This document shows positions 10,322-56,674 of a DNA stretch of 64,000 nt, piece by piece; positions within the stretch are counted from its first letter, which is position 1; each line of letters opens with the position of its first letter. The position numbers and the translations under genes are program-made. Below the pieces are notes generated by a model. The model was not told where the DNA came from. It did not search any database and saw only the letters and a list, made by a program, of their open reading frames with translations. The DNA is from Micromonospora polyrhachis (GTDB taxonomy: Bacteria; Actinomycetota; Actinomycetes; Mycobacteriales; Micromonosporaceae). Where the stretch lies: contig NZ_JACHJW010000001.1 in assembly GCF_014203835.1 (NCBI RefSeq), positions 3,298,501 through 3,362,500 of the forward strand, given 5' to 3'.

Positions 10322-10960
10322 CTATGCGTTGCTGTTCGCCTCCCGCTGGGCCACCTCGGCAAGTGCGGCGCGCAACACGTCCGGCTCCTGCGCGCCGGTG
10401 ACGGCGTACTTCCCGGCGAGGACGAAGGTCGGCACGCTCGTCACGCCCAACTCGCGGGCGGTGGCCAGCGCCGTGCGTACCTCGGGCTCCCCGTCGGTGG
10501 AGTCGAGGAACTGGCGTACCTCGGTTTCGTCGAGGCCGACCCCGGCGCCGATGGTGGCGAGTGCGTCCCGTGATCCGATGTCCACACCGTCGGTGAAGTA
10601 GGCGCGATAGAGCCCTTCGACGGTCTCGGCCGCGTAACCACGCGAGTCGGCCAACCGCACAAGCCGGTGGGCGTCGAAGGTGTTCGCCGTCACCGCCCGG
10701 TCGAACCGTAGTTCCAGGCCATCCCTGGCGGCGACGCCGGTGGTGTGAGCAAGCATCTGCTCGGCCTTCTCGGCGCCACCGAACTTCTCGGCGAGCGACT
10801 CGACCAGCGGTCGAGGCTCGGGGACCGGTGACGGGTCAAGCTGGAATGGCCGGAACCCGACCGTCACGTCACCCTCGAAGGATTCAAGGGCGCGCTCCAA
10901 CCGGTGCTTTCCGATGTAGCACCACGGGCAGACCACGTCGGCGTAGACCTCAATCTCCAT
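10322..10960 (-). CDS. FrnE-type DsbA-family oxidoreductase
   Basis: The protein has 212 residues. The thioredoxin-like active site CPWC is at residues 11-14 (YADVVCPWCYIGKHRLERAL), followed by the helical insert and the cis-Pro segment GVTSVPTFVLAGKYAVTGAQ typical of the FrnE subgroup. There is no signal peptide, so it acts in the cytoplasm as a dithiol-disulfide oxidoreductase. I start at ATG 10960, where family homology begins; an in-frame ATG at 10975 would add five residues. It lies directly downstream of sufE on the same strand and is probably cotranscribed, linking two thiol or sulfur-handling genes. Confidence 0.85.
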   Translation of the reverse strand: MEIEVYADVVCPWCYIGKHRLERALESFEGDVTVGFRPFQLDPSPVPEPRPLVESLAEKFGGAEKAEQMLAHTTGVAARDGLELRFDRAVTANTFDAHRLVRLADSRGYAAETVEGLYRAYFTDGVDIGSRDALATIGAGVGLDETEVRQFLDSTDGEPEVRTALATARELGVTSVPTFVLAGKYAVTGAQEPDVLRAALAEVAQREANSNA

Positions 10961-10981
10961 GACCGAAGACAACATCGCGGA

Positions 10982-11401
10982 TCAGGCGATCTGTTCCCGT
11001 ACCTGGCGCTTGAGTCGGGCCAGAATGGCGGTGCCACCGCGTACCCGCAGCGGGCTGATCGCCTCGGCGAGGCCCATCCGCTGGTAAAGATCGTCGGGTA
11101 CGGCCAGCACCTCGTCGGCGCTCGCGCCCGCCAGCCCTTCGGCCAGAATGCCAGCGAACGCCCGGGTGGTGGGTGCCTCGGGCGGGCAGTCGAACCAGGT
11201 GGTGACCGTACGGTCCGGCGCCACCTCGGCCCGCAGGAAGAACACCGTCTGGCACTCCGGCACCTGCTCCATTCCGGCCCGGTCGGCCAGGGCGGCGGGC
11301 AGCGGCGGGACGCTGTCGGCGAATTCCAGCAACATCTCCAGTACGACGTCTCGCGGAGCGGACGCGAACTCCTCGACGATCTCGGCGAGTTTCGGTGGCA
11401 T
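10982..11401 (-). CDS. sufE: SufE-family cysteine desulfuration protein
   Basis: The protein has 139 residues. It has a SufE domain with the sulfur-accepting cysteine in QVPECQTVFFLRAEV (about residue 51), the conserved FDCPPEAPTTRAFAGIL segment and a C-terminal RGGTAILARLKRQV helix. It accepts persulfide sulfur from a SufS-type cysteine desulfurase and stimulates Fe-S cluster assembly in the cytoplasm. ATG 11401 starts the domain exactly. The sseA rhodanese gene lies 1.8 kb away; in mycobacteria sseA and a sufE homologue are adjacent, so this looks like a loosened version of the same neighbourhood. Confidence 0.85.
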   Translation of the reverse strand: MPPKLAEIVEEFASAPRDVVLEMLLEFADSVPPLPAALADRAGMEQVPECQTVFFLRAEVAPDRTVTTWFDCPPEAPTTRAFAGILAEGLAGASADEVLAVPDDLYQRMGLAEAISPLRVRGGTAILARLKRQVREQIA

Positions 11402-33319: not shown

Positions 33320-34798
33320 ATGGGCAGGGACGTCTCGCGAAGTGCCTTCTCGCGGGAGGATCGCGTTCACTACCGGCAGAAGGTACGCCGGTGCCTGGAC
33401 GTCTTCGCGCTGATGCTCGACGACTTCGGCTTCGACGCCGACCGCCCCACCACCGGTCTGGAAATCGAGCTCAACCTGGTCGACTCCGCCGCCGAACCCG
33501 TGATGCGGAACGCGGAGATCCTCGCCGACATCGCCGATCCGTTGTTCCAGAGCGAACTCGGCCGGTTCAACCTGGAACTCAATGCCCGACCGCGGCTCAT
33601 CGAGGGGGCCGGGTTCGCCGACTACGAGCAGGACCTGGTGACCAGTCTCGGCCGGGCCGACGAGCGGGCGGCGAAGTCCGACGCCGGGATCGTGCTGATC
33701 GGCATCCTGCCCACCCTCACCTCCCGGCACCTGGTCGAGGGAAACCTCTCCACCGACAAGCGCTATCGGGTGCTCAACGAGCAGATCGTGGCGGCCCGGG
33801 GTGAGGACATCGAGATGGACATCCGGGGAGTCGAGCGGTTACAGACCTACACCGACTCCATCGCGCCGGAAGCGGCCTGCACCAGCGTGCAGTTCCATCT
33901 CCAGGTCTCGCCGGACACCTTCGCCAACTACTGGAACGCATCCCAGGCCATCGCCGGGGTCCAGGTAGCCATCGGGGCCAACTCGCCGTACCTCTACGGG
34001 CGACACCTGTGGGCCGAGACCCGGGTCGCCCTCTTCGAGCAGGCAACCGACACCCGGCCGGACGAGCTGAAGGCCCAGGGCGTACGTCCCCGGGTCTGGT
34101 TCGGCGAACGGTGGATAACATCGATCTTCGATCTGTTCGAGGAGAACGTCCGTTACTTCCCGCCGCTACTGCCCATCTGTGAAGACGAGGACCCGGTCGA
34201 GGTCCTGCACAACGGCGGAGTTCCCCAGTTGGGAGAGCTACGGCTGCACAACGGCACCGTCTACCGCTGGAACCGGCCGGTCTACGACATCATGAACGGT
34301 CGTCCGCACCTGCGGGTCGAAAATCGCGTGCTGCCGGCTGGCCCGACCGTGGTCGACATGCTCGCCAACGCTGCCTTCTACTTCGGACTGACCCGGGAGC
34401 TGGCCGAGGCCGACCGCCCGATCTGGAGCCAACTGACGTTCAGCGCCGCCGAGGAGAACTTCCACTCGGCAGCCCGTCGGGGCATGGACGCGACCGTCTA
34501 CTGGCCGAGGCTCGGCGACGTACGCGTCAGCAACCTGGTCCTCGACGTGCTCCTGCCCCGGGCGGCGGTAGGGCTGGACCGGTTTGGTGTCGACCCCGAT
34601 CACCGGGACCGGTTGCTCGGCATCATCGAGCAACGGTGCCGTACCGGGCGCAACGGTGCGGTGTGGCAGACCGAGTCGGTGTTCGCGGCCGAACAAGGCC
34701 GAGGCCTGGACCGCCCGGCGGCGCTGCATCACATGTTGCGCCGCTACCGCGAACTGCAGGCCACCAACGCCCCGGTGCACACCTGGCCGGTCGACTAG
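33320..34798 (+). CDS. Glutamate-cysteine ligase family 2 (GCS2/YbdK-like) protein
   Basis: The protein has 492 residues. GCS2-superfamily features are TTGLEIELNLVDSAAEPV near the N-terminus (the conserved E-x-E metal and substrate site), FNLELNARPRLIEGAGF, SVQFHLQVSPDTFANYWN and a C-terminal HLRVENRVLPAGPTVVDMLANAAFYFG. The superfamily makes gamma-glutamyl or related carboxylate-amine bonds with ATP. Actinobacteria use mycothiol rather than glutathione, so the true substrate is probably not glutathione-related. ATG 33320 has GGGGAGG upstream, so the longer frame from 33290 is unlikely. Its stop shares a CTAG with the convergent pentapeptide gene. Confidence 0.82.
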   Translation: MGRDVSRSAFSREDRVHYRQKVRRCLDVFALMLDDFGFDADRPTTGLEIELNLVDSAAEPVMRNAEILADIADPLFQSELGRFNLELNARPRLIEGAGFADYEQDLVTSLGRADERAAKSDAGIVLIGILPTLTSRHLVEGNLSTDKRYRVLNEQIVAARGEDIEMDIRGVERLQTYTDSIAPEAACTSVQFHLQVSPDTFANYWNASQAIAGVQVAIGANSPYLYGRHLWAETRVALFEQATDTRPDELKAQGVRPRVWFGERWITSIFDLFEENVRYFPPLLPICEDEDPVEVLHNGGVPQLGELRLHNGTVYRWNRPVYDIMNGRPHLRVENRVLPAGPTVVDMLANAAFYFGLTRELAEADRPIWSQLTFSAAEENFHSAARRGMDATVYWPRLGDVRVSNLVLDVLLPRAAVGLDRFGVDPDHRDRLLGIIEQRCRTGRNGAVWQTESVFAAEQGRGLDRPAALHHMLRRYRELQATNAPVHTWPVD

Positions 34799-35493
34799 TC
34801 GTCCTCCTCGATGCGAATGCCCAGCGCACCGGCCAGGACATGGGACAGGGTGACCAGATCCTGGCGGGCCACGGCCGCGCCGGACATGCTGGTGACCCCA
34901 CCGATTCCGGCTAGGGCGCAGTTCGTGAACCGGGCCCCGGCCATCCGGGCGTGGGAGAACTGCGCGCTGGTCAGGTCGCAGTCGACGAACGAGGCACCAC
35001 GTAGGTCCGCGTTCTGGAAGTCCGCCTGGCCCAGGTTGCATCCCTGGAAGACCACGTGCTGGAAGGCGGTGAACCGGAACGACGAAAGGTCGAGTCGGCA
35101 GTCGGAGATCGTCACATCTCGTAAGGCGCCGTTGACCCAGTGCAGACCGGTCATCCGGGCCGTCGACAGTCGTACCCGGAACATCGACGACTTCTCGGCG
35201 CGGAGGTTTGCCAGGTTCGCATGCTCGAACAGGCAGTCGTCGAGCCGGGCCCCGTCGAGTTGGGTGCCGCTCAGGTCCGTCCCCTTCACCCGGCACTGGG
35301 TGAACTCCACCGAATCCGCGCGGCGTCCGGAGAGGTCGAGGTCGAAGAAGGCCAACCTTCGGTACGTCGCCTCGTCGGCCAGGTCGTGGTCCTCGACGGT
35401 GGCCAACTCCAGCGCCGAAGGCGGCTTCGGGGCGACCGGGTCACGGCGTGCCGGGAAGCCATTCGAACCAGGACGTGTCGACCGGGCGGACAT
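34795..35493 (-). CDS. Pentapeptide-repeat protein
   Basis: The protein has 232 residues. From about residue 45 to 205 it shows repeating A(D/N)LxX pentapeptides, such as CRVKGTDLSGTQLDGARLDDC, LFEHANLANLRAEKSS, CNLGQADFQNADLRGASFVDC and ARMAGARF, which form a right-handed quadrilateral beta helix. Some members protect DNA gyrase from quinolones by mimicking DNA, but no specific target can be assigned. It starts at ATG 35493 and overlaps the convergent GCS2 gene by 4 bases. Confidence 0.85.
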   Translation of the reverse strand: MSARSTRPGSNGFPARRDPVAPKPPSALELATVEDHDLADEATYRRLAFFDLDLSGRRADSVEFTQCRVKGTDLSGTQLDGARLDDCLFEHANLANLRAEKSSMFRVRLSTARMTGLHWVNGALRDVTISDCRLDLSSFRFTAFQHVVFQGCNLGQADFQNADLRGASFVDCDLTSAQFSHARMAGARFTNCALAGIGGVTSMSGAAVARQDLVTLSHVLAGALGIRIEEDD

Positions 35494-35648: not shown

Positions 35649-36341
35649 ATGACTGACGGAAGCGGTAGCTGGGGTACGCCACCCGGAGGGCAGCCAGCCC
35701 GGTCTGGGCGGATGTCCCTGGTAGCCGGGAGCGTCGTCGCGATCGCGCTCTTCGCCACCGTCGGTGCGGTGGGCGGGTGGCTACTGGCCAAGTCCGAGCA
35801 GGACGACGTGCCGCTCGCAGGACAGACCACCCCCACGGTCGCACCACAGACGACCAGCGCGGCGAAACCGACCCAGCAGTCCGTGAAGCCCACCAACAAG
35901 CAGACCACCCCGCCCGCCGGGCAGGTCCTGATGCCCGATCTGGTCGGCCGGAACTTCAAGGATGTCCGGCAGGAGCTGCGTGCCCAGGGACTGAAATGGG
36001 CGTTCCACTTCGGGGGCGCGGGGCAGAACAGCAGTATTTCGAGCACTGTCCCCCTGGCCGGTGACCCGGTACGACCGGGCCGCGTCGTGCAGGTCTTCGT
36101 GATCGGCGAGGCGCCCCAGGTGGTCGTCCCGAACGTCGTCGGACTGAGCTGTCAACAGGCGGCGGCCAAGCTCGTCGATGCCGGGCTGGAGCCGAAGTAC
36201 GCGAAGACCGACTCCGGCACGGTCACCAAGCAGAAGCCGGAGGCGGCGGCGGAGAAGCGGTGGAACGACCAGGTGCAGATCCACTGCGGCCAGGACGGCG
36301 AAGAGTCCGACGACGACACGCCTGAGTCGCCCACACCCTGA
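35649..36341 (+). CDS. PASTA-domain membrane protein without kinase domain (first of two)
   Basis: This 230-residue protein has a short cytoplasmic tail, one TM (SLVAGSVVAIALFATVGAVGG, about residues 22-42), a Thr/Pro/Gln-rich linker and two PASTA domains. The first begins VLMPDLVGRNFKDVRQELRAQG and the second VVVPNVVGLSCQQAAAKLVDAG. It ends in an acidic tail. PASTA domains bind muropeptides or beta-lactams in PknB-type kinases and PBPs; here no catalytic domain is attached. ATG 35649 is preferred because it gives a normal type II topology. The 102-base gap to a second PASTA gene suggests a related pair. Confidence 0.8.
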   Translation: MTDGSGSWGTPPGGQPARSGRMSLVAGSVVAIALFATVGAVGGWLLAKSEQDDVPLAGQTTPTVAPQTTSAAKPTQQSVKPTNKQTTPPAGQVLMPDLVGRNFKDVRQELRAQGLKWAFHFGGAGQNSSISSTVPLAGDPVRPGRVVQVFVIGEAPQVVVPNVVGLSCQQAAAKLVDAGLEPKYAKTDSGTVTKQKPEAAAEKRWNDQVQIHCGQDGEESDDDTPESPTP

Positions 36342-36442
36342 TGGTCGGGCCGCGCACCACGCCGTACCGGTGAATCTCCCAGGCCGGGACAAGTTGCACG
36401 ATTGTCGGCATCGGCCACCCGTGCGGTGGGAGAGTACGTGCT

Positions 36443-37309
36443 ATGGCCGACGACCGTCAGCAGCCACCGGGCGACTCCGGAGACCGTGACGGCCAGGCGG
36501 CCCCCAACGACCGGGCGGGCCCCGGCGGCCAGGTAGACCCCAGCGGCCAGGTAGACCCCGACGAGTCGTTGGAGCAGACCGGCGAACTGCCCCGGGTTAC
36601 CGGGACGGATGAGGCGAGCACCCAACCCGTTCCTCGCCCGGCGGAGCCGGGCGGGACCGCGCCGCTGCCGGCGCAGCACCCGCCGGCGGCTTCGGTGCAC
36701 CATCCGCCGGCGGCTCCAGCGCAGCAACCGCCGAGGCCGTGGTCGGGCCGGGCCGAGGTGCCGGCGGGCATCCGAGGCGGTGCACCCCCGGACTGGTACG
36801 ACGAGGTCGACTACGACAACGGCCGCTGGTGGATGCCGATCCTGCTCGGTGTCATAGCGTTGTTCCTCCTCGCGGTCCTCGGCTTCGGTGTCTGGCTCAT
36901 CGTCCAGGCAAGTCAGGGTGGTCCAGCGTCCGGACCACGCCCGGTCCCCACACCGTCAGCAACCTCGGCGCCGTCACCTGCCCCGCAGGGCAGCCCCACA
37001 CCGTCGCCGTCGACCACCACCCAGACCCCCACGACCCGTACCACTCCACCGGGCGCGGTGCCCATGCCGATCCTGGTCGGTCTGCCCGAGGCGGTGGCGC
37101 GGGAGGTACTCGACCAACTCGGGTTGACGTACCAGATCCGGTTCCGTACGGGCAGCGGCTGGCCCTCGGGCACGGTGATCGAGACCGATCCTCGTGCCGG
37201 CACCCCTGTGCTTCCGAATCAGCGGGTCACCCTGGTGGTCGCCGAGTCGCCGTCGCCGTCTGCGGCGACCACCCGCCCTGGGCGTCCGACCGTGCGGCCG
37301 ACCCGCTGA
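36443..37309 (+). CDS. PASTA-domain membrane protein without kinase domain (second of two)
   Basis: This 288-residue protein has a long Pro/Gly/Gln-rich cytoplasmic region (about 1-128), one TM (WWMPILLGVIALFLLAVLGF, about 129-153), a Pro/Ser/Thr-rich linker and one PASTA domain. That domain starts at VPMPILVGLPEAVAREVLDQLG and continues to VLPNQRVTLVVAES. A GGQVDPSGQVDPDE segment is encoded by an 18-base near-repeat at about 36526-36561. Like its neighbour it has no kinase or transpeptidase domain, so it may sense cell-wall fragments or act as a scaffold. ATG 36443 gives the full frame. Confidence 0.78.
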   Translation: MADDRQQPPGDSGDRDGQAAPNDRAGPGGQVDPSGQVDPDESLEQTGELPRVTGTDEASTQPVPRPAEPGGTAPLPAQHPPAASVHHPPAAPAQQPPRPWSGRAEVPAGIRGGAPPDWYDEVDYDNGRWWMPILLGVIALFLLAVLGFGVWLIVQASQGGPASGPRPVPTPSATSAPSPAPQGSPTPSPSTTTQTPTTRTTPPGAVPMPILVGLPEAVAREVLDQLGLTYQIRFRTGSGWPSGTVIETDPRAGTPVLPNQRVTLVVAESPSPSAATTRPGRPTVRPTR

Positions 37310-37328: not shown

Positions 37329-37655
37329 CTAGCCCACCTGTACGGGATGTCGCGCCGCCGACTGTCGTACCGTCGGGGTCCGGGGCGCTGGCGGCCGGGG
37401 GCCCGGCTGCCGTACCACGGTCCGGCCAGCCGACGGGGCAGCGGCAGGTACGGTGTGCAGCCCGTCGAGCCGTACGAAGATCGAGCGACGGTCGACGGCT
37501 TCCCCGGCTGAATTGAGCTGGTATCCGTCGAGCCAGATCCAGCCACGGTAGGTGGGCCAGTCATGCGAGCGGATCACCCGGAAGAGGATTGGTGCGGCGA
37601 ACTGCGCACTTGCCGAACGGGTCACTCGTAGCACATCACCGGAGCGGGGGAACAC
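37329..37655 (-). CDS. Conserved hypothetical small protein of Micromonosporaceae type
   Basis: The protein has 108 residues. GTG 37655 has AGGAG 6 bases upstream on the minus strand and opens with FPRSGDVLRVTRSASAQF, then FRVIRSHDWPTYRGWIWLDGYQLNSAGEAVDRRSIFVRLDGL, which looks like a compact beta-rich domain of about 70 residues. The last 35 residues are Pro/Arg-rich. I recall similar FPR.GDVL..T proteins from Micromonospora annotations without function. It is convergent with the second PASTA gene, 19 bases away. Confidence 0.6.
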   Translation of the reverse strand: MFPRSGDVLRVTRSASAQFAAPILFRVIRSHDWPTYRGWIWLDGYQLNSAGEAVDRRSIFVRLDGLHTVPAAAPSAGRTVVRQPGPRPPAPRTPTVRQSAARHPVQVG

Positions 37656-38237
37656 GGTTACTCCTGTCTGGACTAGCCGGCGGCGGCCGGCTGGAGCTGG
37701 CTGTTCAGGGAAGTGGGACCACCGACCGGGCACGCTGCACTGCCGGCCGCTCGTGATGTGGGACATTGGCCGGTCGATGCGCCGCGGCGGTTTTGGGCAT
37801 GGCGCATCGACTCGACCAACATCCGTCAACTCCGGGACCGCGCCCGCCGCCATAGCTTCGTGGCGTACAGCGGCGGGGTCTGTTACCCCAGAGCGGGTCT
37901 GCCTCCTGTCATGGGTCCGGTGTGGCTGACCCGGTCGCTCCGGTGCAAAGCGAAATCACCCCTTCGATCGACCAGATCGGGACACTCTGTGACCCAAGCC
38001 ATACGCACAGACTGCATCAATGGCTTGATCAATGCAAGTTGCAAGTTTGGCCGTGTGGTTACCGACCACAGGCGCTTGATGTCCGGCTTGCGTACCCGGC
38101 AGACTGGACGCCGCCCTGCCGCAGCGGCCCGGCCGGGGTGTGCCGGTTTCTCTCGCCGCGAAGTCATCGTCCGCCGCCTTCGATGGTCGCGCCTCGGCGG
38201 ACGTCCACCGCATGCGCGATCGACCGGAGGTGACCCG
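37656..38237. other. 582-base gene-free stretch upstream of the XRE gene
   Basis: No frame here has coding character plus a start signal. The only local structure is a tandem heptamer, TGCAAGT at 38033-38039 and again at 38040-38046, inside a relatively AT-rich patch (TGATCAATGCAAGTTGCAAG) about 190 bases before the XRE start. This may be an operator or promoter element of the XRE/DUF397 pair. Confidence 0.45.
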
Positions 38238-45073: not shown

Positions 45074-45341
45074 ATGCGGTGCATGGTGAGGCCCACCTGC
45101 GCCCATGTCTGGCATGGGCATATCTAAACTTTTGTCCTGAACCTGCCCGTCGGCGGGTGCCTGGACATATTACGCTGTACCCTACTGCCGCTACGAGCGG
45201 ATATCTCTCGCAGCGGAAGGAACATTAGCACGACTATCCCGGCCCCTCGAGGATGGGCCGGCAGCAGGCGGTCGAGCGGCGTGCGAGCTGCACGTGCGAC
45301 GGCCGGATACCATCATGTCCTCGGGACCCGAGGAGGAGCCG
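45074..45341. other. Promoter region of the fhaA-pknB operon
   Basis: This 268-base gap lies between the divergent tRNA-Leu and fhaA. An AT-richer patch (45120-45180, TATCTAAACTTTTGTCCTGAA and CATATTACGCTGTACCCTAC) probably contains the promoters. No gene is visible. Confidence 0.45.
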
Positions 45342-46097
45342 GTGAGCGTGCTGCAACGCTTCGAGAAGCGTTTGGAAGGTCTGGTTGAGGGGGCCTTCGC
45401 AAAGGTGTTCAAGGGTGTTGTCCACCCTGTGGAGATCCTCAACGCGATGCAGCGGGAGGCGGAGGCGCACAAGGCGATCCTGGCCGGCGGGCGCACTCTC
45501 GTACCCAACCGCTACGTGATCGATCTCTCGCCGTACGACCATAGCCGGCTCGCGCCATACGCGGCGGCACTGGCCCAGGAACTGGCCCAGTCCCAGGCGG
45601 AGTTCATCGGCGAGCAGGCGTGGACGGTCTACGGCGACGTGATCGTCGAGATCGAGCGCGGGGACGGACTCGACACCGGCATGTTCCGGGTCACCGCCGA
45701 GGTCTACACCGGTGGCGAGGTGGCACCGGCGCAGCCGGCCTACGACGCTCCCGGTGGTTATCCGCACTACGACCAGGGTGGCGGCTACGGTCCTCCCCCT
45801 GGTCACGGCGGTGGCCGCAACATCCGTCTGGTCTCTGGCGACGGACGGACTTACCCTCTGCAGATGGGTTCCACCGTGATCGGCCGGGGCGACCAGGCCA
45901 ATCTCCGCCTGCCCGACGTCGGCATCTCGCGCCGACACGCCAGACTCGACTTCGACGGTTCCCAGGTGGTGCTCACCGATCTGGGCTCGACCAACGGCAC
46001 CATGGTCAACGGCCAGCGCGTCTCGGCCGTGGCGCTCAACCCCGGTGACATGATCCAGCTCGGGACGACCACCCTCACGTTCCGAGTGGACGGCTAA
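45342..46097 (+). CDS. fhaA: FHA-domain protein FhaA (DUF3662 + FHA)
   Basis: The protein has 251 residues. The N-terminal DUF3662 domain (about 1-120) reads LQRFEKRLEGLVEGAFAKVFKGVVHPVEI and RTLVPNRYVIDLSPYD. A short Gly/Pro/Tyr linker follows, then the FHA domain (about 165-245) with VIGRGDQANLRLPD, ISRRHARL and LGSTNGTMVNG phosphothreonine-binding residues. FhaA binds phosphorylated targets of PknA/PknB such as MviN and restrains peptidoglycan synthesis. GTG 45342 follows AGGAGG (45331-45336) by 5 bases. It is the first gene of the growth-control operon. Confidence 0.93.
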   Translation: MSVLQRFEKRLEGLVEGAFAKVFKGVVHPVEILNAMQREAEAHKAILAGGRTLVPNRYVIDLSPYDHSRLAPYAAALAQELAQSQAEFIGEQAWTVYGDVIVEIERGDGLDTGMFRVTAEVYTGGEVAPAQPAYDAPGGYPHYDQGGGYGPPPGHGGGRNIRLVSGDGRTYPLQMGSTVIGRGDQANLRLPDVGISRRHARLDFDGSQVVLTDLGSTNGTMVNGQRVSAVALNPGDMIQLGTTTLTFRVDG

Positions 46098-46101
46098 CAC
46101 C

Positions 46102-46581
46102 TTGCCCCCTTTCGTCATCACTGTCGCGCGTTTCGGGTTCATCATCCTGCTGTGGATCTTCGTATTCACGGTGGTCGGCGTGATCCGCCGGGATCTCTTC
46201 GCCGGAGCCAGATCCAGTCGTCTCGTCGCCGCACCGCGGGTCGGGGCGTCACTGGTGCACGGAAAGCCGGCAAAGGTGAAGAAGGGGCGGGCGGCGCGTC
46301 AGCTCGTCGTCACCGCCGGCCAGTTGGCCGGTACCCGGATCACGCTCGGCGAAGCGCAGATCACCATCGGCCGCGCGGAGGATTCCACCCTCGTCATCAC
46401 CGACGACTACGCCTCGGCCCGGCACGCACGGCTGGTGCCCCGGGCTGGACAGTGGTTCGTCGAGGATCTCGGCTCGACTAACGGCACCTATCTCGATCGC
46501 GCTAAGGTCACCGGACCAACCCCCGTCCCCCTCGGCGTGCCGATTCGAATCGGCCGCACTTCTCTCGAATTACGGCCATGA
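46102..46581 (+). CDS. fhaB: FHA-domain membrane protein FhaB (FipA)
   Basis: The protein has 159 residues. One N-terminal TM (ARFGFIILLWIFVFTVVGVI) is followed by a linker and a C-terminal FHA domain (about 78-157) with ITIGRAEDSTLVITDD, YASARHARL and LGSTNGTYLDR. The only in-frame start near the TM is TTG 46102, four bases after fhaA, with no strong ribosome site. FhaB/FipA binds phosphorylated FtsZ and other PknA/B targets at the septum in mycobacteria. Its stop overlaps the pstP ATG (ATGA). Confidence 0.92.
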   Translation: MPPFVITVARFGFIILLWIFVFTVVGVIRRDLFAGARSSRLVAAPRVGASLVHGKPAKVKKGRAARQLVVTAGQLAGTRITLGEAQITIGRAEDSTLVITDDYASARHARLVPRAGQWFVEDLGSTNGTYLDRAKVTGPTPVPLGVPIRIGRTSLELRP

Positions 46582-51027: not shown

Positions 51028-52467
51028 ATGCTCAGCCCTGGTGTCGAGCTCGGCAACCGGTATCGGCTCGACGAGCGGATCGCCAGTGGTGGCATGGGCG
51101 ACGTGTGGCGCGGCACCGACCAGGTGCTCGGCCGTACGGTGGCGGTAAAGAGCCTGCTCCCCGCGCTGCTGGACGAGCCCGGCTTCGCCGAGCGGTTCCG
51201 CGGCGAGGCCCGCACCATGGCGACCATCAACCACCCGGGCGTGGTCGACGTCTACGACTTCGGCAGCGATCAGCAGATCGCCTTCCTGGTGATGGAGTAC
51301 GTCGAGGGCGACGCCCTGTCCCGGACCCTGGGTCGGGTCGGTCGGCTCACCCCGGCCCGCACCATGGCGTTGATGGCCCAGGCGGCCGACGCCCTCCAGG
51401 CCGCCCACGACAAGGGCATCGTGCATCGGGACGTCAAGCCCGGCAACCTGCTGGTCCGGCCGAACGGCACGCTGGTCCTCACCGACTTCGGCATCGCCCG
51501 TTCGGACATGGTCGGGCAGCTCACCGCCGCCGGGTCGGTGCTCGGCACCGCGTCGTACATCTCACCCGAGCAGGCATCGGGCGCGACCGCGACTCCCGCT
51601 TCCGACGTGTACGCCCTCGGCGTGGTCGCCTACCAGTGCCTGGCCGGTCGACGGCCGTTCGAGGGCGACAACCCGCTCGAGATCGCGATGAAGCACGTTC
51701 GGGACCTGCCCCGGCCTCTGCCCGCCGACATCCCACCGGCCATCCGGGCCATCGTCGAACGTGCCCTGGCGAAGGATCCGGCGGCGCGCTGGCCGAGCGC
51801 TTCCGCGCTGGCGGCGGTCGCCCGCCAGGCGGCGGTGGCCAAGGCCGGACCGGCCCCGGTGGTGATACCGGCACAGCCCACCAGCCCACCGAGGTTCGGA
51901 CCGGTCGGCGTGCCGCCCCGCCCCGGCATGGTCAGTGCTCCGCCGGCCCATCCCGGCCCCGGCGTCCCCGGCTCACCGGTGGCGGCCCCCGGCCACGGCC
52001 GGGCGGCACCACCGCGTCCACCGACGGCGGCGACCGGCATGCCGCCGCGACCCCCGATGACCCCAGCGGGACCTGTCTACCCGCCGGTCAGCCCGGTTGC
52101 CGGCGGTCAACCCCGGGGGGCCGCCGCCGTATCGTCCGTGCCGCGCCAGCCGACCCACCAGGGGTACGCTCGCCCGCCGGCCGCCGCACCGGCGGAGCCG
52201 GAGAGCGTCCTCAACCGACCATTGGTGGTCGTGCTCGTGATCGCGGTGGGCGTATTGGTGATGATCTGCGCGGGCGTGATTTCCTATCGGATGACGCAGG
52301 ACGACGCTGCCATTGGTCAAGGCAACCGAAGCGTGTCGATGATGACGGCCAGGTTGCAGATGAGGAGCGAGGGCGACGGATCGCGGATTGAGCCGTACCG
52401 TCAGGTGGAGCGGGCCGCGCGTGCCGGCTGGGCGACGAGACTGAGCGAAGGACGAACGACGAGATGA
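51028..52467 (+). CDS. pknA: Ser/Thr protein kinase PknA
   Basis: The protein has 479 residues. The Hanks-type kinase domain (about 10-270) has the glycine loop RIASGGMGDVWRG, Lys41, HRDVKPGNLL with catalytic Asp135, DFGIAR (153-158) and the ASYISPEQASG activation segment. A Pro-rich juxtamembrane region of about 120 residues is followed by one TM (VVVLVIAVGVLVMICAGVIS, about 399-419) and an extracytoplasmic tail of about 59 residues without PASTA domains. It phosphorylates division and cell-wall proteins. Its stop overlaps the pknB ATG. Confidence 0.94.
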   Translation: MLSPGVELGNRYRLDERIASGGMGDVWRGTDQVLGRTVAVKSLLPALLDEPGFAERFRGEARTMATINHPGVVDVYDFGSDQQIAFLVMEYVEGDALSRTLGRVGRLTPARTMALMAQAADALQAAHDKGIVHRDVKPGNLLVRPNGTLVLTDFGIARSDMVGQLTAAGSVLGTASYISPEQASGATATPASDVYALGVVAYQCLAGRRPFEGDNPLEIAMKHVRDLPRPLPADIPPAIRAIVERALAKDPAARWPSASALAAVARQAAVAKAGPAPVVIPAQPTSPPRFGPVGVPPRPGMVSAPPAHPGPGVPGSPVAAPGHGRAAPPRPPTAATGMPPRPPMTPAGPVYPPVSPVAGGQPRGAAAVSSVPRQPTHQGYARPPAAAPAEPESVLNRPLVVVLVIAVGVLVMICAGVISYRMTQDDAAIGQGNRSVSMMTARLQMRSEGDGSRIEPYRQVERAARAGWATRLSEGRTTR

Positions 52468-54191
52468 CTGCGCAGGCCCGCCTGCTGGGAGGCAGGTACC
52501 AGGTCGGCGAGCTGCTCGGCTATGGCGGCATGGCCGAGGTGCACCGAGGGCGCGACCTCAGACTCGGTCGGGACGTCGCCATCAAGATGCTGCGTACGGA
52601 CCTCGCCCGGGATGCGACCTTCCAGATGCGGTTCCGGCGGGAGGCGCAGAACGCGGCGTCGCTCAACCACCCGGCGATCGTCGCCGTCTACGACACCGGC
52701 GAGGAGACCGCCCCCACCGGCGAGACGATTCCGTTCATCGTGATGGAGTTCGTCAACGGGCGCACGCTCAAGGAGGTGCTCGCCGCCGAGGGGCGGTTGA
52801 TGCCCCGCCGGGTGATGGAGATCAGCGCGGACATCTGCGCCGCGCTGGAGTTCAGCCACCGGCACGGGATCATCCACCGGGACATCAAGCCCGGCAACGT
52901 GATGCTCACCCTGACCGGCCAGGTCAAGGTCATGGACTTCGGTATCGCCCGCGCGTTGGCCAGCGGTGCGACCACGATGACCCAGACGAGTGCGGTGATC
53001 GGCACCGCGCAGTACCTCTCGCCCGAGCAGGCGCGCGGTGAGGCGGTGGACGCCCGCTCCGATGTCTACGCCGCCGGTTGCGTGGTGTTCGAACTGCTCT
53101 GCGGTCACCCGCCGTTCGTCGGGGACAGCCCGGTCAGCGTGGCCTACCAGCATGTGCGGGAGGACCCGCCGACGCCGAGCAGTATCAACCCGGACATCAC
53201 CCCGCCGATCGACGCGATCATCCTCAAGGCGCTGTCGAAGAACCCGCTCAACCGCTACCAGAGCGCCGGCGAAATGCGTGCCGACCTGCTCCGGGCCGCC
53301 ACGGGGCGGCCGGTCATGGCGACGCCGGTCATGCAACACGACGAGACCGTGCCGATGGCCCCCTCCGGCGGGCGGTCGGCTGCCGGAGGTGCCGGCGGAG
53401 GGCGTCCCACCCCGCCCTCGGCTCGGGTGGGCGACGGCCGGCGGCGTACTCCGGCCTGGGTGATGGCCACGCTCAGCGGTCTCGGTGTGCTCGCGGTGAT
53501 CGCCCTGGTAGCCGGTATCGTCCTCTCCAACCAGCCGAAGAATGTCACGGTGCCGACCGTGCTGGACATGTCGCGGGCCGACGCCATCGCCGAACTCACC
53601 AAGGCGAAGTTGCAGTACCAGGTCGGCGAGGAGGAGTTCACCTCCACCTGCAAGAAGGGGTTGGTGACCCGGCAGGACCCGCAGCCCAGCGAAGAGGTCG
53701 CCGAGCAGACCCCGGTCACCATCCGGGTCTGCGGTGGGGCGCCGCAGGTGAAGATCCCCGAGCTGGTCGGCGGGGAGTTCGACTTCGTGGAGGGCCAGCT
53801 CAAGGGCCTGAAGCTCAAGGTCACCCGCAAGGACGTGGAGAACGAGCGGCCAGAGGGCATCGTCGTGAAGCTCTCCCCGGCGCCCGGCGAGATGGTGGCC
53901 GAGAACACGGAGATCATCGTCGAGGTGTCCAAGGGCAACCTCAAGGCGGTACCGGACGTGGTCGACAAGACGGAGCAGGAGGCCAGGGCGGAACTGATCG
54001 CTGCCGGTTTCCGGGTGAGCGTGAAGTACCGGGACTCCAACAAGACCCCGGGTACGGTGCTCGACCAGAGCCCGAACGCCAATCAGAAGCGGCGTACCGG
54101 CACCGTCATCACGATCACCGTCGCTCGCGAGATGCAACCGAGCCAGGGGCCGAGTGGCACGCCGTCGGCGAGCCCACCGGCGGGCGGCTGA
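52464..54191 (+). CDS. pknB: Ser/Thr protein kinase PknB with three PASTA domains
   Basis: The protein has 575 residues. The kinase domain (about 11-275) has LLGYGGMAEVHRG, Lys41, HRDIKPGNVM (Asp140), DFG (158-160) and activation-loop threonines 171 and 173 in TMTQTSAVIGTAQYLSPEQA, the same numbering as the autophosphorylation sites of M. tuberculosis PknB. One TM (VMATLSGLGVLAVIALVAGIV) is followed by three PASTA domains (VTVPTVLDMSRADAIAEL, VKIPELVGGEFDFVEGQL, KAVPDVVDKTEQEARAEL); the mycobacterial protein has four. The PASTA part senses muropeptides or lipid II. It is the last gene of the plus-strand operon. Confidence 0.95.
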   Translation: MTAQARLLGGRYQVGELLGYGGMAEVHRGRDLRLGRDVAIKMLRTDLARDATFQMRFRREAQNAASLNHPAIVAVYDTGEETAPTGETIPFIVMEFVNGRTLKEVLAAEGRLMPRRVMEISADICAALEFSHRHGIIHRDIKPGNVMLTLTGQVKVMDFGIARALASGATTMTQTSAVIGTAQYLSPEQARGEAVDARSDVYAAGCVVFELLCGHPPFVGDSPVSVAYQHVREDPPTPSSINPDITPPIDAIILKALSKNPLNRYQSAGEMRADLLRAATGRPVMATPVMQHDETVPMAPSGGRSAAGGAGGGRPTPPSARVGDGRRRTPAWVMATLSGLGVLAVIALVAGIVLSNQPKNVTVPTVLDMSRADAIAELTKAKLQYQVGEEEFTSTCKKGLVTRQDPQPSEEVAEQTPVTIRVCGGAPQVKIPELVGGEFDFVEGQLKGLKLKVTRKDVENERPEGIVVKLSPAPGEMVAENTEIIVEVSKGNLKAVPDVVDKTEQEARAELIAAGFRVSVKYRDSNKTPGTVLDQSPNANQKRRTGTVITITVAREMQPSQGPSGTPSASPPAGG

Positions 54192-55282: not shown

Positions 55283-56674
55283 TCAGCCTCCCAGTTCGGC
55301 GGGCTGTCCAGCCGACTTCGGCGTGCTGCGAACCAGTTGTGCGTGGATGATCAGACGCTCGTAGTTGTCGAACTTCGGGTTACAGGTGGTCAGCGTGAGC
55401 ATGGCCTTGGTCGGCTTGGCCCCGCTCTTGCCGGGGACCGGCGCGACCACCTCCACCTGGTGCGGCTTGACGACGCGCGACTGTGAGACGCGGTAGATAT
55501 GCCAGTCGGCCTTCGACTCGACGACGACCACGTCGCCGGTGTGTAGCTCGTCGAGCCGCCAGAAGGTGGCCCGGTTGCGGTGCCCCGCCACCGAGAAGTT
55601 GCCCACCTGACCAGGCAGGGCACTGTCCGGGTAGTGGCCGGGTGCGTATCGGATGTCGGCCTGGCCGACACCTTCCACGACGATCCACTGCTTGTCGAGC
55701 TTCGGGATGTAGAGCCCGGCTATCGGCTTACCGGTGACCGGCGGCTTCGGTTTGCCGCTGGGCGCGGTGCTCGCACTCGCGGTCGGCGCGACAGTCGGAT
55801 CCGCCTCCCGGTCCCACTGCTGGTCCAGTATTCCGCGCAGGTCGTCCTGGTGGGCGTTGACGACAGCGGACTTGCCCCAGACCTCGTAGCCGGCGAAGAG
55901 CAGTACGACCAGGCCGAAGGTGATCAGAAGCTCGCCGCTGACCCGGATTCCTGTTCGGATTCGGGAGCCGAGCGTGGGGCGGGTCAGCTCGGAGTAGATG
56001 CTCTTGTAGCCCTCGTCGGTTCGCTGGGGGCGAAGCTTGACCACCCGCTCGCCGCGTCGGGGGCGTACCTCGGACTCGGACTCGGCCTTGGTCGGCGCCT
56101 CGGCGGTCGAGTCGCCACCGGACCGGCGGCGGCCGTGCGTCCCGGCCCTCTCGGTCGTCGCTTGCCGGTCGGCAACGACCGGGATCAGCGCGGTGGACTG
56201 GTCATGGTCGTTGCGGATCGCCGGGATGAGCTGGGTGAACACCTCGGTACGCTGCTCGCCGGGCGAGCTGCTGGGCTGGTCGGTCGGGGCGGTGTGCCGA
56301 GGTGCTTGTCCGCCGCGCGACCCGGCGGAGCGGCCGGGCAACTCATCGTTCGGCGATCCACCACCTCGTCCGTCGGGTGGGGCGGCGGGCCGGTGTCGGC
56401 CATCGCTAGGCCGCCGTCGGGGTGGGCCGTCCGGCCGCGTGGCCCAGTCGCCGCCGTCGCCATGTGCTTCGGGAGTGCCGTGATGTGCCGTGGGGGTACT
56501 GCGATGTGGTGCCGGAGTGCCGTGATGTGCCGTGGGGGCGCTGCGATGTGGTGCCGGAGTGCCGCCGCCCACGCGGGGAATCTGCGCCGTCGGCTCGTCG
56601 GCCGGTGTGCCTCGCCGACGTACCTCGTAGTCGTCCGGGGAGTCGCCCGGGGAGCCGTCCGGTGTCGGTCTCAC
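55283..56674 (-). CDS. Class E sortase
   Basis: This 463-residue protein has a long disordered cytoplasmic N-terminus (about 1-225, rich in Pro, Arg, His and Thr) with a 14-residue imperfect tandem repeat around [14 protein letters not shown], one TM ([21 protein letters not shown]) and a sortase beta barrel. Catalytic residues are His about 365 ([12 protein letters not shown]), Cys about 431 (TLTTCNPKF) and Arg about 440 (NYERLI). Class E sortases anchor LAXTG-type surface proteins in high-GC actinobacteria. GTG 56674 overlaps the DUF881 stop (GTGA), so translation is coupled. Confidence 0.9.

Follow-up and report, generated by a model that had tools for sequence, protein, structure and literature searches.

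Domain architecture of P1 and P2

The stretch of DNA analysed here, referred to as the window, comprises 64,000 nt of the Micromonospora polyrhachis genome (NZ_JACHJW010000001.1, positions 3,298,501-3,362,500). It includes two adjacent genes, P1 and P2, which are separated by 101 bases, have a coding-like GC3 and encode single-pass membrane proteins carrying PASTA domains:

35649-36341 (+): P1, 230 aa, single-pass, with a short inner tail, a Ser/Thr/Pro linker and two outer PASTA domains
35718-35774 (+): P1 transmembrane segment, residues 24-42 by hydropathy (predicted helix 28-41, AlphaFold2)
35925-36101 (+): P1 PASTA-1 (genome 3334425-3334601), from the whole-genome PASTA search and AlphaFold2
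36120-36281 (+): P1 PASTA-2, from the whole-genome PASTA search, holding Cys168 and Cys213
36443-37309 (+): P2, 288 aa, single-pass, with a long disordered inner tail and one outer PASTA domain
36443-36739 (+): P2 cytoplasmic tail, residues 1-99, modelled at low confidence (mean pLDDT per block 43-55, AlphaFold2)
36572-36592 (+): P2 tail motif 1, EQTGELP, Thr46, acid at -2 present
36614-36634 (+): P2 tail motif 2, ASTQPVP, Thr60, lacking the acid at -2
36650-36670 (+): P2 tail motif 3, GGTAPLP, Thr72, lacking the acid at -2
36740-36763 (+): P2 WSGRAEVP segment at the tail-membrane junction, from residue conservation among orthologues
36833-36916 (+): P2 transmembrane helix, residues 131-158 (AlphaFold2)
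37058-37243 (+): P2 PASTA domain (genome 3335558-3335743; AlphaFold2, Foldseek)

The Pfam PASTA model (PF03793) matches P1 twice (5.4e-22, 78 bits) and P2 once (1e-10, 41.9 bits), against a curated cut-off of 23.2 bits. At an E-value of 0.1, a Pfam scan of both proteins finds nothing besides PASTA, and no kinase, transpeptidase or transglycosylase model. NCBIfam matches are below cut-off and confined to the PASTA part; for the PASTA kinase family NF033483, P1 and P2 reach 47.7 and 28.4 bits, where the cut-off is 450. AlphaFold2 models, built from alignments of 10 and 12 rows, have pLDDT values above 90 in most PASTA blocks and below 60 in the P2 tail. The best Foldseek matches in the PDB are the PASTA domains of Mycobacterium tuberculosis PknB, Staphylococcus aureus PrkC, StkP and PBP2x: P2 matches 3ouv at a TMt of 0.88, while P1 matches 5e10 best (E 1.4e-8), with one domain matching 3ouv at a TMt of 0.79. 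By sequence, P1 finds S. aureus PASTA kinase chains in the PDB at 1e-4, and P2 finds no PDB chain at 0.01. A non-PASTA fold for the C-terminal domains is thus ruled out by the Pfam and structure matches.

One transmembrane helix is predicted in each protein, and Lys and Arg are more numerous on its N-terminal side, both in P1 (48 versus 9 on the C-terminal side, 18 sequences) and in P2 (51 versus 24, 29 sequences). This excess argues for a topology in which the N-terminus lies inside the cell and the PASTA domains outside, with a weaker signal for P2, in which the N-terminal side has more in 18 sequences, the two sides are tied in nine and the order is reversed in two. The original prediction of two adjacent single-pass proteins, displaying two and one PASTA domains outside the cell with neither a kinase nor a transpeptidase domain, agrees with the reading frames, the Pfam results and this topology, and the structure predictions to which it had referred the question of fold also return PASTA.

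The whole-genome search finds 11 PASTA domains in five open reading frames, of which one has four, the PknB in the window three, an 875-aa frame one, P1 two and P2 one. Cys168 and Cys213 in the second P1 PASTA domain are invariant in all 18 orthologues, which suggests that this domain is tied by a disulfide; all 29 P2 sequences are free of Cys. At the tail-membrane junction of P2, W100, G102, R103, A104 and V106 are invariant among 12 sequences, and W100 and A104 remain so in a wider set of 28.

Genomic neighbourhood

The P1/P2 block is located upstream of a cluster running from fhaA to pknB, and is kept across the Micromonosporaceae. The relevant features of that cluster are as follows:

45294-46097 (+): fhaA, with FhaA_N and FHA domains, a presumed reader of phospho-Thr motifs
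46102-46530 (+): fhaB-like stretch with an FHA domain, as scanned (the frame extends slightly further)
52464-54191 (+): pknB, a kinase with three PASTA domains
53340-53357 (+): PknB juxtamembrane motif DETVPM, Thr295, identical in pattern to the P2 tail motif

The pknB start at 52464 lies 15.2 kb past the end of P2, close to the 15 kb originally given. Among 32 loci from relatives (the window excluded; one of them, L065, duplicates L048), 25 have P2 between a gene for a GCS2-family ligase and an HTH/DUF5753 gene that is followed by a DUF397-type gene. The other loci are on cut contigs, are locally rearranged or, in the case of L081, lie in a different place. In many of the loci long enough to show it, fhaA and pstP occur about 10 kb or less beyond P2. 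Within the family, identity to the window proteins is 68-86% for GCS2 and 81-96% for FhaA, and 31-47% for P2 and 24-44% for P1.

Several further genes accompany the block. A pentapeptide-repeat protein is encoded at 34795-35493 (-) in the window, in the position that a polytopic membrane protein occupies in most loci of relatives; the one such membrane protein scanned (locus L045, 7871-9112) has no Pfam match. A small protein with hydrophobic segments at both termini and an RRR-x-W end, also lacking a Pfam match, is encoded at 10793-11227 (-) in L045. Proteins of this kind come after P2 in many relatives, and none is called in the window. Located between P2 and the HTH gene is a conserved family of about 95 aa with the signature SGDVLxVTRxASxQF and no Pfam match (window 37329-37850 (-); L045 11328-11615 (-)).

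Distribution of P1 and P2

P2-like proteins are found in 63 of 81 Micromonosporaceae genomes, M. polyrhachis counted, at E-values of at most 2.2e-18, and in 33 of the family's 44 genera. The remaining 18 genomes (11 genera), which may have lost P2 or never had it, show weaker matches at the level of PASTA. In searches of the loci, P2 also recovers P1-type frames (7e-4 to 2.7e-16) and a PknB (3.7e-10). P1 and P2 may be paralogues or may have acquired their PASTA domains separately. Against 78 other genomes of the class, none of the matches listed is full-length. These non-family matches start at model position 153 or later, in the linker and PASTA domain, with the exception of those in G173 and G142. 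The G173 match is a kinase by sequence, as is that in G111, which starts at 153. In G142, which belongs to another family, the protein (L210, 1199-1840 (-)) is a 213-aa single-pass protein with a Thr/Pro linker and a tail of the P2 type with the repeats DPTAVIP, DPTAVTP and DPTAVMP; no PASTA domain is seen in its sequence.

P1, the distribution of which the original prediction had also proposed to check, is patchier. It is present in 19 of the 29 loci of the discovery set described below and in 16 of 41 held-out loci, so that its pairing with P2 is loose; P2 occurs with no P1 found in 10 and 25 of these loci, respectively (L064, L048 and L080 are examples).

This distribution bears on the idea that P1 and P2 are relics of degraded PASTA kinases or penicillin-binding proteins (PBPs). 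Their PASTA domains do resemble those of PknB, and in one relative (G078) the PASTA domain of P2 is shortened. However, P2 persists in more than three quarters of the family's genomes, by which a kinase pseudogene is ruled out, and its conserved N-terminal and transmembrane parts are not seen in the kinases. We consider a relic origin extremely improbable.

In a single genus, g24, the PASTA domain is lost and the tail retained. All three genomes (G023, G069 and G089) match P2 only ahead of the PASTA domain, and their loci (L078, L159 and L160) keep the tail motifs, a W-x-x-RA segment and the transmembrane helix; the proteins end in a Pro-rich or Gly/Asp-rich stretch instead. This genus warns that PASTA may be dispensable for at least part of the role of the tail.

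A repeated motif in the P2 tail

The tails of P2 orthologues, which range from 23 to 261 residues, are built of repeats such as DATRAMPP, DETIALPDR, DQTAPYRPV and DEATRIVPA. The wording of the repeats varies by lineage and the pattern is constant: an acid at -2, Thr, a hydrophobic residue at +3 and often Pro at +4 or +5. This array was not part of the original prediction. It was defined in a discovery set of 29 tails, which leaves out L047 and L051 (where the contig starts inside P2), L065 (the same region as L048), L081 (another family, with a weak match at 2e-5) and L082 (a second weak region, in G024). A held-out set was drawn from other genomes and comprised 43 loci, of which L157 and L158 were dropped because the motif at the tail end was not found, leaving 41. 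Several tail start codons were chosen by the analyst, and a few held-out tails begin at the profile match instead.

The motif [DE]xTxx-hydrophobic occurs 107 times in the discovery tails, compared with 4.4 ± 2.0 in 500 residue shuffles (4.3 ± 1.9 in a repeat run), and at least once in 29 of 29 tails, compared with 3.9 ± 1.7 after shuffling; because the tails share descent, such tests overstate their independence. The number of copies per tail is between 1 and 11. With about one tail per genus, a set in which some rows may still share a genus, there are 70 motifs against 3.3 ± 1.8, with at least one in 19 of 19 rows (3.0 ± 1.5 expected). The held-out tails contain 129 motifs against 6.0 ± 2.3; 38 of the 41 have at least one and three have none.

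The constraint is specific to position. In the discovery set, a hydrophobic residue is found at +3 of 57% of tail Thr (background 10%), giving 126 Txx-hydrophobic occurrences against 21.6 ± 4.0, and an acid at -2 of 64% (background 20%); hydrophobic residues at +4 are depleted (5 against 21.3 expected). Pro is present at +4 and +5 of 46% and 37% of tail Thr, against a background of 18%. Ser in place of Thr is depleted in both sets (7 against 15.1 in the discovery set and 6 against 16.5 in the held-out set). At +2, hydrophobic residues number 31 against 21.8 ± 4.3 in the discovery set and are raised in the held-out set (72 against 32.7 ± 5.0), in which several tails have DATRIGP and DETRVRP repeats that place the hydrophobic residue at +2, off the +3 rule.

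The linkers on the outer side of the 29 discovery-set proteins serve as a control. They are richer in Thr (257 Thr in 1299 residues) and contain no [DE]xTxx-hydrophobic motif, which against 0.9 expected is weak by itself, and no excess of Txx-hydrophobic (9 against 15.2 ± 3.4). General richness in Thr as the source of the motif is ruled out by the shuffles and this control. A common genomic background is ruled out by the other genes in the relatives' loci: a density of at least four [DE]xTxx-hydrophobic motifs per 100 aa is reached by 13 of 28 P2 proteins and by none of 462 other genes.

The P2 protein of the window is a weak example of its family. Its tail has three Txx-hydrophobic-P motifs, of which only that at Thr46 has the acid at -2. 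In a sample of its own genome (the window and 20 sampled stretches, 366 called genes), the maximum is three [DE]xTxx-hydrophobic motifs per 100 aa, reached by four genes; P2 scores one, as do 144 of the 366, which is ordinary. For Txx-hydrophobic-P, its three per 100 aa place it joint top with one other gene.

Could P2 simply be a passive anchor or spacer, attached by PASTA to the wall, with a low-complexity tail whose sequence drifts? The fast divergence of P2 relative to GCS2 and FhaA and the wide range of tail lengths would fit such a role. However, drift does not yield a roughly 20-fold excess of one motif in differently worded repeats while the outer linkers show none, and we regard a passive anchor as very unlikely.

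The motif in PknB and published kinase and FHA preferences

The same motif is shared with the kinase. [DE]xTxx-hydrophobic is present in PknB juxtamembrane segments in 22 of 25 genomes (28 occurrences against 2.1 ± 1.4), and in 14 of 16 within the family. Family genomes that lack P2, such as G004, G007 and G011, have it as well, and the PknB motif is therefore not tied to the presence of P2. The Thr of this motif presumably corresponds to Thr294 of BCG PknB. In BCG PknB, phosphorylation of juxtamembrane Thr309 is reported, and Thr294 is left open (PMC4389566); the specific role of juxtamembrane phosphorylation of PknB is described elsewhere as unknown (PMC6428115).

Thr sites sensitive to PknA depletion in M. 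tuberculosis are reported to be enriched in Leu or Val at +3 and in N-terminal acids. The acids are at -1 and -3 to -6, not at -2, accompanied by Pro at +2 and, at +4, by basic residues; nothing significant is reported there for PknB (PMC7164672). The fit of the P2 tail motif to a kinase consensus is partial, since the published acid positions differ and nothing significant is given for PknB. FHA domains are reported to bind pTxx[I/L/V] or pTxx[E/D] (PMC8786283), and phosphorylated MviN and CwlM to be bound by FhaA (PMC11898655). In sequence, the tail motif resembles both a mycobacterial PknA site and an FHA ligand of the pTxx[ILV] type, and the depletion of Ser is as expected for reading by FHA domains.

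Alternatively, the motif might dock an unphosphorylated partner, such as a polar or divisome scaffold, and be unrelated to kinases. The marked Pro at +4 and +5 would suit docking of this kind, as would the fact that phosphorylation of the tail is a prediction. The use of Thr with depletion of Ser, the same pattern in PknB and a locus that adjoins kinase and FHA genes all argue against it, and it seems rather improbable.

A sortase-family protein encoded at 55283-56674 (-) in the window has three Txx[IL]P-type motifs (PTAQIP, FTQLIP and STALIP) in its N-terminal region. The tail motif may belong to a wider vocabulary among membrane proteins here.

PASTA ligand contacts

In alignments to PDB chains, the string skgnq stands immediately ahead of a PASTA start, where the PknB of the window reads SKGNL. 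We take this string to be Ser556, Lys557, Asn559 and Gln560 of M. tuberculosis PknB. Three of the four residues are kept in the PknB of the window; P1 has only the Gln and P2 has none. These residues are reported as putative contacts, mutation of which abolishes binding (PMC6428115). Since P2 has none of them, it is doubtful that P2 binds lipid II in the way PknB does, and its PASTA domain could bind otherwise. Within the PASTA family, binding of muropeptide, lipid II or beta-lactam is not a property that every member shows.

As decoys, one of the roles originally suggested, P1 and P2 would compete with PknB for lipid II or muropeptides, which their PASTA domains would bind, and the tails would be unimportant. 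The lack of a catalytic domain in either protein is compatible with this, as is the short, motif-free tail of P1. In mycobacteria, overexpression of a PknB TM-PASTA construct devoid of the kinase is reported to delay growth and raise beta-lactam sensitivity (PMC4632501), and on account of this perturbation a decoy role stays somewhat credible for P1. However, the same study reports that the effect is not relieved by muropeptides, and the reported lipid II contact residues are mostly missing from P1 and P2. The P2 tail, moreover, is under strong position-specific constraint, and one genus retains tail and membrane helix in the absence of PASTA. A pure decoy could thus describe P1 and does not fit P2, in which the most evident constraint is cytoplasmic; for the pair as a whole it is unlikely.

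Comparison with known systems

P2 resembles the PASTA kinases of the PknB/Stk1/PrkC type in its single-pass, N-in topology, outer PASTA and juxtamembrane [DE]xTxx-hydrophobic motif; these have a kinase domain of their own, whereas P1 and P2 have no PF00069 match. PASTA PBPs (PBP2x, PonA2) share the PASTA fold with P1 and P2 and differ in having a transpeptidase/transglycosylase domain. The artificial TM-PASTA construct of PknB is likewise a kinase-less PASTA protein on a membrane anchor, but one reported as engineered and overexpressed (PMC4632501), whereas P1 and P2 are natural and diverged.

The proposed mode of P2 is most like that reported for MviN and CwlM, mycobacterial ligands in which phospho-Thr written by a kinase is read by FhaA (PMC11898655). 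Unlike these, P2 has PASTA alone by Pfam and its disordered tail holds numerous short motifs; its FHA binding is predicted. Rv1747 of M. tuberculosis is reported to be a partly disordered membrane protein, as P2 is, and to cluster on phosphorylation, an effect reversed by PstP (PMC9312465); it includes an ABC transporter and FHA domains, neither of which Pfam finds in P2. AuxB of S. aureus, reported as a membrane protein that interacts with a PknB kinase, is likened to P2 by description and not by sequence.

PASTA domains, FHA ligands and phosphorylation-driven clustering, as reported for Rv1747 (PMC9312465), are already known. Among the papers that the literature searches listed, judged by title and opening of the abstract, none describes kinase-less PASTA membrane proteins in Actinobacteria or a PASTA receptor that lacks a kinase and bears repeated copies of the kinase's juxtamembrane-type motif. 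An earlier mention is possible, most likely in the paper by Ogawara (2016) on how PASTA is distributed in Actinobacteria (cited in PMC6273383).

A proposed role for P2

The preferred reading, to which we would give an even chance, is that P2 is a PASTA-anchored phospho-scaffold that works with PknA/PknB and the FHA proteins, with P1 as an ectodomain that assists or competes. P2 would then act in the PknA/PknB pathway as a receptor-adaptor that has no kinase. Outside the cell, its PASTA domain would keep it at sites of wall growth, and inside, its disordered tail would offer several Thr in a [D/E]xTxx-hydrophobic-(P) context to PknA/PknB for phosphorylation, which PstP would reset. The FHA domains of FhaA and FhaB would read the phospho-Thr, and many motif copies per tail would make P2 a multivalent platform gathering FHA proteins and wall-synthesis regulators close to PknB. 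P1, which has no tail motif, may be a partner of P2 or PknB, or a competitor for ligand; a functional link between the two genes seems plausible. The original interpretation is supported in part. An accessory role in the PknB system draws support from the conserved place beside the fhaA-to-pknB cluster and, above all, from the tail motifs that P2 shares with PknB. Muropeptide sensing by the pair is putative, and nothing in this analysis speaks for a part in antibiotic sensing.

It may even be that the Micromonosporaceae have split PASTA signalling between a kinase and a separate kinase-less receptor, whose juxtamembrane-motif tail, varying in copy number, tunes FHA recruitment. This extension is tentative, and we lean against it. 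Under such a split, the tail array, made of copies of the PknB juxtamembrane phospho-motif, would expand and contract rapidly, and the number of FHA proteins recruited to each wall-bound receptor would depend on copy number. The multi-site receptor tails of animal immune receptors would be analogous.

P2 keeps PASTA, multiplies a juxtamembrane-type motif and drops the kinase, and so isolates the question of how PASTA kinases in Actinobacteria recognise their targets and arrange them. If the proposed role is true, P2 would also represent the repeat-number evolution of a bacterial phospho-tail, in bacteria that count many antibiotic producers among them.
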